A stretch of 64,000 nucleotides of DNA from Weissella tructae (GTDB taxonomy: Bacteria; Bacillota; Bacilli; Lactobacillales; Lactobacillaceae): positions 248,001-312,000 of the forward strand of contig NZ_CP007588.1 of assembly GCF_000732905.1 (NCBI RefSeq). Direction: 5' to 3'. The notes beneath the pieces are model-generated. The model did not search any database and was not told the DNA's origin. It saw only the letters and a program-made list of their open reading frames with translations. Within the stretch, counting starts at the first letter, position 1. Each line of letters opens with the position of its first letter. The position numbers were made by a program, and so were the translations under genes. Shown piece by piece: positions 49,833-52,298 of the stretch.

Positions 49833-49937
49833 TTGAACAAAACGTGGTGTTAAGGCTCAAAAATAAATGATTTAAAACTTGACAATGTTATTCAGTTTTG
49901 AGATAATTAAATCTCGTACTGCTAATTAAATAGCACG

Positions 49938-50054
49938 TGTTGTGATGATGGCATTGAGGCCACACCTGTTCCCATACCGAACACAGAAGTTAAGCTCAAT
50001 AGCGCCAAAAGTAGTTGGGGGATCGCCCCCTGCGAGGATAGGACATCGCAATGC
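49938..50054 (+). rRNA. rrf: 5S ribosomal RNA, operon 2
   Basis: About 117 bases, same core as the 5S of operon 1 with one substitution near the 3' end. No terminator follows; transcription runs on into the tRNA array, with tRNA-Val starting four bases later. Confidence 0.95.
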
Positions 50055-50058
50055 ATCT

Positions 50059-50131
50059 GGACGTTTAGCTCAGCTGGGAGAGCACCTGCCTTACAAGCAG
50101 GGGGTCACAGGTTCGATCCCTGTAACGTCCA
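50059..50131 (+). tRNA. tRNA-Val (TAC)
   Basis: Acceptor GGACGTT/AACGTCC, anticodon TAC (50092-50094). Two bases separate it from the next tRNA. Confidence 0.95.
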
Positions 50132-50133
50132 TT

Positions 50134-50206
50134 GGGCCGTTAGCTCAGCTGGCAGAGCAGCGGACTTTTAATCCGTGGGTCCTGGGTTCGATCCCCAGAC
50201 GGCCCA
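50134..50206 (+). tRNA. tRNA-Lys (TTT)
   Basis: Acceptor GGGCCGT/ACGGCCC, anticodon loop CTTTTAA with TTT at 50167-50169. Confidence 0.95.
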
Positions 50207-50248
50207 TTTGTCAGTAACATATTCCGCCAGGCTGATATATTTTATATC

Positions 50249-50321
50249 GCCGACTTAGCTCAGTTGGTAGAGCATCGCTCTTGTAAAGCGAGGGTCGAAG
50301 GTTCGAGTCCTTTAGTCGGCA
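50249..50321 (+). tRNA. tRNA-Thr (TGT)
   Basis: Acceptor GCCGACT/AGTCGGC, anticodon loop CTTGTAA with TGT at 50282-50284. Confidence 0.95.
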
Positions 50322-50325
50322 TACT

Positions 50326-50395
50326 ACGATAACTAATGGTTAGTGGTTCTTTCTTAATTTGAAAGAACCGATAGGTTCGATTCCTATTTTTCGTT
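50326..50395 (+). ncRNA. tRNA-like element with abnormal D arm and 9-bp anticodon stem
   Basis: A 70-base sequence between tRNA-Thr and tRNA-Leu that folds like a tRNA but is not a normal one. The acceptor ACGATAA pairs with TTTTCGT with one T-T mismatch. The D arm is reduced to CTAA/TTAG with a three-base loop. The anticodon arm has nine perfect pairs, GGTTCTTTC with GAAAGAACC, and the loop TTAATTT (nominal anticodon AAT, T at position 37). The T arm is perfect: ATAGG, loop TTCGATT, CCTAT. It could be a decayed tRNA gene or a kept tRNA-like small RNA; the intact stems favour the second. Confidence 0.6.
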
Positions 50396-50397
50396 TT

Positions 50398-50481
50398 GCC
50401 GGCTTGGCGGAATAGGTAGACGCACAGGACTTAAAATCCTGCGATGGAAACATCGTACCGGTTCGATCCCGGTAGCCGGCA
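50398..50481 (+). tRNA. tRNA-Leu (TAA)
   Basis: Acceptor GCCGGCT/AGCCGGC, anticodon loop CTTAAAA, long variable arm CGATGGAAACATCG as usual for leucine. Begins two bases after the tRNA-like element. Confidence 0.95.
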
Positions 50482-50489
50482 TATATAAC

Positions 50490-50563
50490 GCACCTATAGC
50501 GCAATTGGATAGAGTGTCTGACTACGAATCAGAAGGTTGCAGGTTCGACTCCTGCTAGGTGCA
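50490..50563 (+). tRNA. tRNA-Arg (ACG)
   Basis: Acceptor GCACCTA/TAGGTGC, anticodon loop CTACGAA. The A34 would be deaminated to inosine. Confidence 0.95.
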
Positions 50564-50600
50564 TTGTGATAGTTAATATCACAGATAGAATTAAATTGTT

Positions 50601-50674
50601 CGGGACGTAGCTCAGCTTGGTAGAGCACCTGGTTTGGGACCAGGGGGTCGCAGGTTCGAATCCTGTCGTCCCGA
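50601..50674 (+). tRNA. tRNA-Pro (TGG)
   Basis: Acceptor CGGGACG/CGTCCCG, anticodon loop TTTGGGA. Confidence 0.95.
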
Positions 50675-50700
50675 TTGTAACAATTAATATGTTATAAGTT

Positions 50701-50774
50701 CGCGGTGTAGCTCAGATGGCTAGAGCGTTCGGTTCATACCCGAAAGGTCGAGGGTTCGATTCCCCCCGCCGCGA
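50701..50774 (+). tRNA. tRNA-Met (CAT), elongator
   Basis: Acceptor CGCGGTG/CGCCGCG is fully paired at position 1-72 and the anticodon stem TTCGG/CCGAA lacks three G-C pairs, so this is the elongator and not the initiator. Anticodon loop TTCATAC. Confidence 0.9.
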
Positions 50775-50798
50775 TTGATATTTTCTTAAATATCTACT

Positions 50799-50888
50799 GG
50801 AGAATTACCCAAGTCTGGCTGAAGGGAACGGTCTTGAAAACCGTCAGGTCGTGAAAGCGGCGCGTGGGTTCGAATCCCACATTCTCCT
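50799..50888 (+). tRNA. tRNA-Ser (TGA)
   Basis: Acceptor GGAGAAT/ATTCTCC, anticodon loop CTTGAAA, long variable arm; 90 bases. Confidence 0.95.
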
Positions 50889-50923
50889 TTAAACACGAAA
50901 GTGTTTATCCATAATAATATTAT

Positions 50924-50997
<74 letters not shown>

Positions 50998-51000
50998 TTT

Positions 51001-51074
51001 GGTCGCATGGTCTAGGTGGTTAGGACGCCTGCCTGTCACGCAGGAGATCACGGGTTCGAGTCCCGTTGTGACCG
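51001..51074 (+). tRNA. tRNA-Asp (GTC)
   Basis: Acceptor GGTCGCA/TGTGACC with a G-U pair, discriminator G, anticodon loop CTGTCAC. Starts three bases after tRNA-fMet. Confidence 0.95.
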
Positions 51075-51082
51075 TTTATTAT

Positions 51083-51155
51083 GGCGCGATAGCTCAGTTG
51101 GTAGAGCATACGATTGAAGCTCGTAGTGTCGACGGTTCGATTCCGCCTCGCGCCA
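51083..51155 (+). tRNA. tRNA-Phe (GAA)
   Basis: Acceptor GGCGCGA/TCGCGCC, anticodon loop TTGAAGC with GAA. The T stem GACGG/CCGCC has one A-C mismatch. Confidence 0.92.
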
Positions 51156-51195
51156 TTTTTTATAAAATTAAATAAAAGCATTTATATTTTATAAT

Positions 51196-51267
51196 GCGGA
51201 TGTAGTACAATGGCTAGTGCTCCAGCCTTCCAAGCTGGGAATGCGGGTTCGATTCCCGTCATCCGCT
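51196..51267 (+). tRNA. tRNA-Gly (TCC), copy 1 of 4
   Basis: Acceptor GCGGATG/CATCCGC, discriminator T, anticodon loop CTTCCAA. First of four identical 72-base genes in tandem. Confidence 0.95.
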
Positions 51268-51284
51268 TTTTATTGAATAATGAT

Positions 51285-51356
51285 GCGGATGTAGTACAAT
51301 GGCTAGTGCTCCAGCCTTCCAAGCTGGGAATGCGGGTTCGATTCCCGTCATCCGCT
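51285..51356 (+). tRNA. tRNA-Gly (TCC), copy 2 of 4
   Basis: Same sequence as copy 1; repeat unit 89 bases, spacer TTTTATTGAATAATGAT shared with the next unit. Confidence 0.95.
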
Positions 51357-51373
51357 TTTTATTGAATAATGAT

Positions 51374-51445
51374 GCGGATGTAGTACAATGGCTAGTGCTC
51401 CAGCCTTCCAAGCTGGGAATGCGGGTTCGATTCCCGTCATCCGCT
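51374..51445 (+). tRNA. tRNA-Gly (TCC), copy 3 of 4
   Basis: Same 72-base sequence, 89 bases after copy 2. Confidence 0.95.
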
Positions 51446-51461
51446 TCGTAAAAATAATAAT

Positions 51462-51533
51462 GCGGATGTAGTACAATGGCTAGTGCTCCAGCCTTCCAAG
51501 CTGGGAATGCGGGTTCGATTCCCGTCATCCGCT
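51462..51533 (+). tRNA. tRNA-Gly (TCC), copy 4 of 4
   Basis: Same 72-base sequence, 88 bases after copy 3, with a different spacer (TCGTAAAAATAATAA-like). Confidence 0.95.
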
Positions 51534-51537
51534 TTAT

Positions 51538-51611
<74 letters not shown>

Positions 51612-51653
51612 TTATTAACATGATAGTGTGTTAATAATGGGTTTTATTATAAT

Positions 51654-51741
51654 GGGGACATACTCAAGAGGCTGAAGAGGCGCCCCTGCTAAGGGTGTAG
51701 GTCGGGCAACCGGCGCGAGGGTTCGAATCCCTCTGTCTCCG
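51654..51741 (+). tRNA. tRNA-Ser (GCT)
   Basis: Acceptor GGGGACA/TGTCTCC with one G-U pair, discriminator G, anticodon loop CTGCTAA, long variable arm. Last tRNA of the array. Confidence 0.95.
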
Positions 51742-51750
51742 TATGAAGTT

Positions 51751-51785
51751 AAAAACCGGTATCTCATTTGAGATATCGGTTTTTT
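51751..51785 (+). terminator. Intrinsic terminator of rRNA operon 2 and its tRNA array
   Basis: ACCGGTATCTCA pairs with TGAGATATCGGT (one G-U), flanked by A and T runs. Confidence 0.92.
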
Positions 51786-51812
51786 GTTAGATATATTCAG
51801 AAAGGAGCTTTC

Positions 51813-52298
51813 ATGAGCAATGAACAACTTAAGACACATACGATCTTTATGTGTATGGTAACAACAATGGTTTGTGTGAGTTTCTTTACGACGATGGAAA
51901 TTTCTTGGCACACAATGCAACGTATATCACTAATGCTGCTTATCATGTGGCCTGTCGCGTTTAGTATTAAACAATGGGTAACGATGCCCATTGTCCGTCG
52001 TATTCACGAGCACGTACTACCAGCCGCAGTGGAAAACAAGAAGCGTCATACATTCCCTTTATTTGTGATCTTAATTAATTCAGGATTAATTACGTTTTTA
52101 TTATTGGCAGTGGCGCAAATTTATCCCAGTGATTTTTTGGCAACATTTTTAGATACATGGGAAAAGAAATTGATGGTACTGATTCCATTGTTCTTCTTTG
52201 TCTTACGACCTAGTATTGAATGGTTGATTAGTGAAGGCCGTCATGACCTAGTAGAGCGTATTGAGTCTAAATCTAATACAATTAACTCAAACAAATAA
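51813..52298 (+). CDS. Small integral membrane protein of unknown function
   Basis: 161 residues with about four hydrophobic segments (for example TIFMCMVTTMVCVSFFTT, ISLMLLIMWPVAFSI, LFVILINSGLITFLLLAVA, LMVLIPLFFFVLRPSI), arranged like a DUF2798-type protein, though I do not recognise the family with certainty. The tail is charged. The frame is open 45 bases upstream into the tRNA terminator; AAAGGAGC sits before this ATG and sets the start. Own terminator downstream; promoter not evident, so it may depend partly on read-through from the tRNA operon. Confidence 0.72.
   Translation: MSNEQLKTHTIFMCMVTTMVCVSFFTTMEISWHTMQRISLMLLIMWPVAFSIKQWVTMPIVRRIHEHVLPAAVENKKRHTFPLFVILINSGLITFLLLAVAQIYPSDFLATFLDTWEKKLMVLIPLFFFVLRPSIEWLISEGRHDLVERIESKSNTINSNK

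Follow-up and report, generated by a model that had tools for sequence, protein, structure and literature searches.

A 70-base element lying between a tRNA-Thr and a tRNA-Leu gene of a tRNA array (Table 1) has the outline of a tRNA in which a long perfect hairpin stands where the anticodon arm should be, which raises the question of what it descends from and why it should persist. The window, meaning here the whole stretch of 64,000 nucleotides analyzed, belongs to a genome referred to hereafter as G000, assembled into one contig of 1,355,853 bases.

A tRNA-like element below the tRNA covariance cut-off

Direct reading of the element reproduced the arms drawn in an earlier note on this DNA: the seven acceptor positions (ACGATAA/TTTTCGT) contain a single U-U mismatch at 5-68, the putative D arm CTAA-TGG-TTAG has four pairs and a three-base loop, the hairpin GGTTCTTTC-TTAATTT-GAAAGAACC has nine pairs, and the T arm ATAGG-TTCGATT-CCTAT has five pairs and a canonical loop. 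The tRNA-like spacing pointed out in that note was borne out by the neighbor ends of the covariance model, which place the element 4 bases after tRNA-Thr and 2 bases before tRNA-Leu (ARAGORN starts tRNA-Leu one base earlier). An acceptor stem and a T arm with a UUCRA loop can both form, with 6/7 acceptor and 5/5 T pairs possible. The MFE fold of the element (-19.9 kcal/mol, z -3.39) was equaled by 2 of 200 dinucleotide shuffles; it pairs only four acceptor positions, together with an extended T stem, and does not contain the pairs 6-67 and 7-66. A search allowing up to three mismatches located the 25-base hairpin at a single place in the window and in none of 100 shuffles.

By covariance search the element is not a standard tRNA: its score under RF00005, the tRNA family of Rfam, is 20.1 bits, below the gathering cut-off of 29, and ARAGORN makes no tRNA call at 50326-50395. 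A divergent but working tRNA reading a codon through the loop TTAATTT could appeal to the seven-base loop, with U as its second base, and to the tRNA-like acceptor end. Besides the low score and the silence of ARAGORN, however, the canonical arrangement of a 5-bp stem and a 7-base anticodon loop is not kept in orthologs, the stem here having nine pairs and the loop in the sister species G002 consisting of the four bases GTCG. Codon reading is thus excluded in practice, and we give this interpretation virtually no credence.

Alignment to an intact relative places the bases of the mini D arm elsewhere and introduces gaps near acceptor positions 5-7, whose homology in G000 is unsure. This makes the D arm and acceptor pairs 5-7 the least secure parts of the drawing, and the small D arm is unlikely to be the original one. 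A scan of positions 49900-52000 gave 10 promoter-like sites (2.9 expected) and five terminator-like sites (1.4 expected). The terminator-like sequence GAACC-GATA-GGTTC within the element competes with the T arm and was judged a chance match.

Table 1. Coordinates in the window of the element, its parts and the tRNA genes discussed.
Feature	Position	Strand	Basis or remark
tRNA-Thr(UGU), upstream neighbor	50249..50321	+	ARAGORN and covariance model
tRNA-like element, putative remnant of tRNA-Gly(GCC), whole	50326..50395	+	Direct read, MFE fold, Rfam model, slot comparison
Acceptor 5' strand ACGATAA; A1-U72 where intact genes have G1-C72	50326..50332	+	Read and pair comparison
Linker CTAATGGTTAGT; potential 4-bp mini D arm; UGGU as in the D loop of intact tRNA	50333..50344	+	
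9-bp hairpin replacing the anticodon arm	50345..50369	+	Stems 50345-50353 and 50361-50369, loop 50354-50360; tip different in G002
T arm, 5 pairs, loop TTCGATT	50371..50387	+	Read, Rfam model, pair test
Acceptor 3' strand TTTTCGT	50388..50394	+	Read and pair comparison
Discriminator-like U73; CCA not encoded	50395..50395	+	Read
tRNA-Leu(UAA), downstream neighbor	50398..50481	+	ARAGORN and covariance model
Four identical tRNA-Gly(UCC) genes	51196..51533	+	With a fifth elsewhere, the only tRNA-Gly found in the genome

Ancestry of the slot between tRNA-Thr and tRNA-Leu

We searched 28 genomes of the genus with the Thr-element-Leu segment and extracted the slot, which was readable in 22; in the other six (G003, G008, G010, G013, G019 and G023) contig ends intervene or the array is missing or reordered. 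The slot holds an intact tRNA-Gly(GCC) in 16 genomes, including G025 and G026, where a contig end cuts the neighbor or the gene, and a remnant in three (G000, G002 and G009); in the remaining three (G004, G014 and G015) it is empty, the gene having been cleanly deleted. A Leu-Arg-Pro query matched 356 of 397 family genomes, genus included, and tRNA-Gly(GCC) occupies the slot at 59/59 on-target family loci sampled outside the genus. These loci represent 57 genomes (G226 and G253 twice) taken from the best-listed places among the 397; ARAGORN called 58 of the genes, the remaining one containing a run of N and being judged by eye. A sixtieth region, from G242, fell in rRNA and is excluded from the count. 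With 16 genus genomes and all 59 family loci carrying it, tRNA-Gly(GCC) is the ancestral occupant of the slot and, judged by synteny, the element is a remodeled remnant of that gene. The earlier note had looked to the same locus in close relatives for conservation of the stems: these are indeed kept in the closest relative, G002, where both bases of two pairs in the 9-bp stem have been substituted. Across the genus the slot mostly holds an ordinary tRNA-Gly(GCC).

A further Gly(GCC) slot, in the arrangement Leu-Thr-[Gly]-Arg, contains only spacer, and no remnant, in G000, G002, G009, G023 and G014. This slot is occupied in some species and is elsewhere plain spacer, hairpin-forming in places.

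A covariance model built from the G000 and G002 elements (R1) matched only those two strongly across the 28 genomes and did not list the G009 remnant. Given that an ordinary tRNA-Gly(UCC) reaches 24.6 bits, against 26.4 bits for the G009 remnant, R1 is unable to sort weak matches. Two such matches, in G015 (25.3 bits, no T arm) and G024 (23.9 bits, pairs broken), were rejected as tRNAs by both ARAGORN and Rfam. When the collection of named genomes was scanned with a T-arm plus acceptor pattern of the remnants, 0 stretches were returned, a result of little weight since the known carriers also went unmatched.

Loss of tRNA-Gly(GCC) and the glyQS T-box

Excluding the element, G000 has 75 tRNA genes, all above the covariance cut-off; the five tRNA-Gly among them all have the anticodon UCC. 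The published description of the Weissella ceti WS08 genome (CP007588) likewise gives 75 tRNAs, including two of undetermined type (PMC4153489). Tandem tRNA-Gly(UCC) copies number four in G000 and three in G002; the remaining arrays that were read have one or two.

Strings of GCC near an anticodon position in G000 belong to tRNA-Gln(CUG) and two tRNA-Met. A BLAST search of 16 genomes with tRNA-Gly(GCC) gave only short T-arm cross matches in G000, G002, G009, G004, G014, G015 and G023, and a pattern combining GCC with a standard T-loop matched, in those seven genomes, other tRNAs, tmRNA-like sequences or chance stretches, mostly judged by eye. A match to this pattern in G015 lies inside a 67-codon open frame and is not a tRNA by ARAGORN or Rfam.

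The specifier of a T-box leader identifies the tRNA being sensed, and in Bacillus subtilis glyQS it is GGC. We found glyQ in 28/28 genus genomes and read its T-box leader in 27, with G008 (66% complete, with a broken glyQ match) yielding none. The glyQS specifier, assigned by alignment and context with the Rfam structure checked for four leaders, is GGC in 20/20 genomes with tRNA-Gly(GCC) and GGA in 7/7 genomes without it, among them G023, whose tRNA array is not assembled.

Among named genomes, the eight highest-ranking Mfd matches all come from Weissella, in agreement with the genus given in the earlier note. A tree of the Mfd protein from 27 genomes places G000 and G002 in a lineage beside species with an intact gene, and G009, G023, G014, G015 and G004 in another lineage, beside G021 and G022, which retain the gene. 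Forcing the three remnant carriers together was rejected (277 log units, p-AU 5.9e-36) on this tree, which is based on a single protein with a midpoint root and contains some long branches (G021, G014). As read from the tree, tRNA-Gly(GCC) is a gene lost separately in two lineages of the genus. The specifier is GGA rather than GGC in both, so that regulation now rests on tRNA-Gly(UCC). In G009, the mfd gene does not form one frame and is broken into overlapping open frames of 717 codons and 546 codons (G009:C1:790248-793744).

Wobble reading of glycine codons

To our knowledge, few bacteria other than Mycoplasma rely on one tRNA for the four glycine codons. The wobble base U34 is modified by MnmG together with MnmE. 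MnmG (TIGR00136) was matched in 0/28 genus genomes, and is present in 166/201 family genomes, 33/40 genera and 9/14 control genomes. The sampled genomes of 7/40 family genera have no MnmG match at all, so this wobble modifier has been lost widely. Because six other genera also have no MnmG, its loss probably predates the tRNA losses and would be only permissive, an ordering that we infer from its distribution.

All 32 tRNA-Gly(UCC) genes read, from 20 genomes, carry C32. This base is needed for superwobbling of the M. mycoides tRNA but is not sufficient, the E. coli anticodon arm being identical, and one tRNA reading all four glycine codons is known in Mycoplasma and in organelles, according to the available text of the same study (PMC10853795). 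The absence of MnmG may let tRNA-Gly(UCC) read all four GGN codons, C32 also helping. In mfd, GGU and GGC together make up 0.46-0.59 of the glycine codons in the seven genomes lacking tRNA-Gly(GCC), compared with 0.53-0.85 in the twenty that have it, values that rest on one gene and, for G009, on one piece with 37 codons.

Retained pairing in the remodeled remnants

The G002 hairpin, GGTTCTTAT-GTCG-ATAAGAACC, shares an identical stem base with that of G000; nearer the tip, two pairs differ in both of their bases, and the loops have four bases in G002 and seven in G000. Between the two genomes the element differs at 8/67 aligned columns, the spacers at 30/294 and the tRNAs at 3/1235; seven of the eight element differences, plus a gap, fall in the hairpin tip. 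The G009 remnant has no D stem and combines perfect acceptor and T stems with the hairpin TTAAGAAAC-TAAT-GTTTCTTAA, which has eight pairs in the MFE fold (z -4.31, computed with a few flanking bases included). On these comparisons, what stands in place of the anticodon arm in both lineages is a perfect hairpin of 8-9 bp.

Pair 1-72, G-C in intact genes, is A-U in G000 and G009 and G-U in G002; in both lineages pair 49-65 has changed from G-U to A-U and pair 51-63 from G-C to A-U. These three pairs are invariant in the 76 intact genes that could be parsed, out of 77, a set in which G226 and G253 are each represented twice and four genus genomes also contribute their second-locus copies. The T-stem base, 49-65, is a G-U wobble in 76/76 of these intact family genes and A-U in the three remnants. 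Bacterial glycine identity, as given in the available text of a published account, comprises U73, G1-C72, C2-G71, G3-C70, C35 and C36 (PMC9976931). The element keeps U73, C2-G71 and G3-C70 and has lost G1-C72, C35 and C36, which makes its glycylation unlikely; having no anticodon, it can neither decode nor serve the T-box.

Over twelve acceptor and T pairs, G000 shows 12 substitutions at 24 positions relative to intact relatives, with five pairs changed on both sides, one changed on one side and one broken; depending on the relative and on mutation bias, 8 to 27 of 20000 random simulations did as well. Since working genes too show variation at pairs 4-69, 6-67 and 7-66, the test was repeated on nine pairs constant in the 76 intact genes (75/76 for 52-62). 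Pairing as good was reached in 1450 of 200000 simulations for G000 (8 substitutions at 18 positions, one pair broken), in 2469 of 200000 for G002 (7 substitutions, one broken) and in 686 of 200000 for G009 (5 substitutions, none broken). Fisher combination of G000 and G009 gives 2.9e-4, or 7.2e-4 under AT-biased mutation. By these simulations the acceptor and T stems have stayed paired through compensatory changes in both lineages, beyond chance; G1-U72 in G002 argues for stepwise change.

These results bear directly on the alternative that the element is a neutrally decaying pseudogene, its hairpin made by a template switch and its stems surviving through short time or further template switches. 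Such decay fits the overall divergence of the element, no less than that of the spacers, but sits poorly with the two lineages having each substituted both bases of pairs that are invariant in 76 intact genes while breaking almost none of these pairs, or with a G-U at 1-72 that looks stepwise rather than block-copied. Pairing was not lost in step with substitutions, although template switching could make some compensatory pairs without selection and is thus a possible neutral cause.

Array hairpins and the origin of the hairpin

Hairpins are common in these arrays: a perfect stem of at least 7 pairs occurs in 36/136 inter-tRNA spacers (18-69 bases, 19 arrays), against 4.6 expected by simple shuffling, with near-identical species included so that the spacers are not independent. 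The Arg-Pro spacer has a stem of at least 6 pairs in 16/19 arrays; its sequence differs between distant species, and its hairpin tip differs between G000 and G002, as in the element. By this comparison, the hairpin of the element is one that behaves like the array spacer hairpins. Across 50208-51652 of the window, spacer hairpins such as Arg-Pro, Ser-Met and Ile-Ser keep their position and vary in sequence. The 15-pair Ile-Ser hairpin (51608-51641) carries a T-rich tail.

The earlier argument that decay would not yield so strong an anticodon arm proved weak, because one template-switch mutation can produce and maintain perfect hairpins, as described in the available text of PMC8794818, and the array spacers are rich in hairpins. 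A short template-switch mutation may have produced the hairpin of the element, as such mutations may have produced those of the spacers. Neutral decay draws support from this mutational route, from the spacer hairpin tips that also differ between G000 and G002, and from the simple loss of the gene in three sister species. It gains nothing from the old gene itself, as the hairpin arms match it, in a comparison directed at the old D-stem strand, no better than shuffles do (302 to 1984 of 2000 as good). With the pairing results also in view, we regard neutral decay as rather unlikely.

In-context folding gave no sign of better insulation of the neighboring tRNAs. The acceptor and T pairing of tRNA-Thr is 0.49 in G000 (0.74 when folded alone) versus 0.42-0.72 in six intact relatives, and that of tRNA-Leu 0.74 versus 0.38-0.91; scores cover 8/12 loci (G000, G002 and the six intact ones), G009, G014, G015 and G004 having been dropped where the Leu pattern was missed.

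A retired tRNA gene as a putative spacer

We think it probable, if well short of assured, that the element is a retired and remodeled tRNA-Gly(GCC) gene still processed as a tRNA-shaped spacer, structured and acting in cis, which would neither decode nor carry glycine. RNase P and RNase Z recognize the acceptor stem, the T arm and the elbow contact, and in the element UGGU could make such a contact with UUCGA. Its RNA would fold as the upper half of a tRNA, to be excised by the two enzymes from the array transcript. The clean deletion of the gene in G004, G014 and G015 indicates that any role is dispensable, and the second remnant design comes from one genome only (G009). As far as sequence comparison can tell, the element most likely persists as a tRNA-shaped, putatively processable spacer in a hairpin-rich array.

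A small RNA acting in trans, that is, a stable, CCA-ended, anticodon-less tRNA body serving outside translation as an aminoacyl donor, an enzyme decoy or a regulator, would equally retain the tRNA-like fold and the elbow-like bases UGGU and UUCGA; it would have arisen twice, and B. cereus tRNA-Other offers a precedent (PMC3399842). We hold it to be decidedly improbable in view of the three deletions, of two designs that share little sequence (26.4 bits for G009 with R1, against 24.6 for tRNA-Gly(UCC)), of loops that differ even between G000 and G002, and of the loss of G1-C72 together with the absence of G3-U70, which leaves neither glycine nor alanine identity. It also seems to us quite unlikely that anticodon-less tRNA bodies evolved twice in Weissella from the retired tRNA-Gly(GCC) to fill a selected role, as stable, CCA-ended and uncharged molecules with the anticodon arm turned into a hairpin and the first glycine identity pair erased.

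Read as a retired gene turned spacer, the element belongs to a series of loss stages displayed by one genus, in which MnmG is not found, the GCC tRNA appears to have been dropped twice and the T-box specifier switched each time; it would be a defunct gene in which the identity pair and the anticodon are gone and the fold persists. The genus thus offers a natural setting in which to test how tRNA genes retire inside a processed array, and of whether array hairpins are mutational by-products or working spacers. Our search of the open-licence literature found no work on pseudo-tRNA in Weissella, and among the matches listed for Weissella tRNA genes, the glyQS T-box, tRNA pseudogenes and MnmG, the available text does not report the loss or the remnant.

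Relation to known tRNA-like RNAs

The closest relative of the element is the Lactobacillaceae tRNA-Gly(GCC), its ancestor by synteny, with which it has in common the slot, the acceptor end (C2-G71, G3-C70 and U73) and the T arm GGUUCGANUCC. It differs in the 9-bp hairpin that stands for the anticodon arm, in a replaced D arm, and in the changes of G1-C72 and G51-C63 to A-U and of C50-G64 to U-A.

The earlier note had proposed an analog of B. cereus tRNA-Other, and both are indeed non-canonical tRNA-like genes. As described in the available text on it, tRNA-Other has a Trp anticodon and poor lysine charging in vitro, and its effects on resistance and on trpS1 have been tested (PMC3399842), whereas the element is known from sequence, has no usable anticodon (TTAATTT, or GTCG in G002) and descends from tRNA-Gly(GCC). 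An intact Trp anticodon of the tRNA-Other type, for a T-box role, is absent from the element, and the glyQS specifier GGA matches tRNA-Gly(UCC). The tRNA-likeness, the spacing, the conserved stems and the kept pairing thus survive from the original interpretation, and the analogy does not.

The tRNA-like domain of tmRNA also consists of a tRNA upper half without the anticodon half, as described in the available text of PMC3929946, and the G009 form resembles it further in having no D stem. The element differs in standing alone, in having G3-C70 rather than G3-U70, and in a length of 70 bases that leaves no room for a tag frame. The staphylococcal non-proteinogenic tRNA-Gly, which serves cell-wall synthesis, likewise belongs to a tRNA-Gly lineage taken out of translation; it has kept its anticodon arm, whereas the Weissella element has shed both that arm and the first identity pair.
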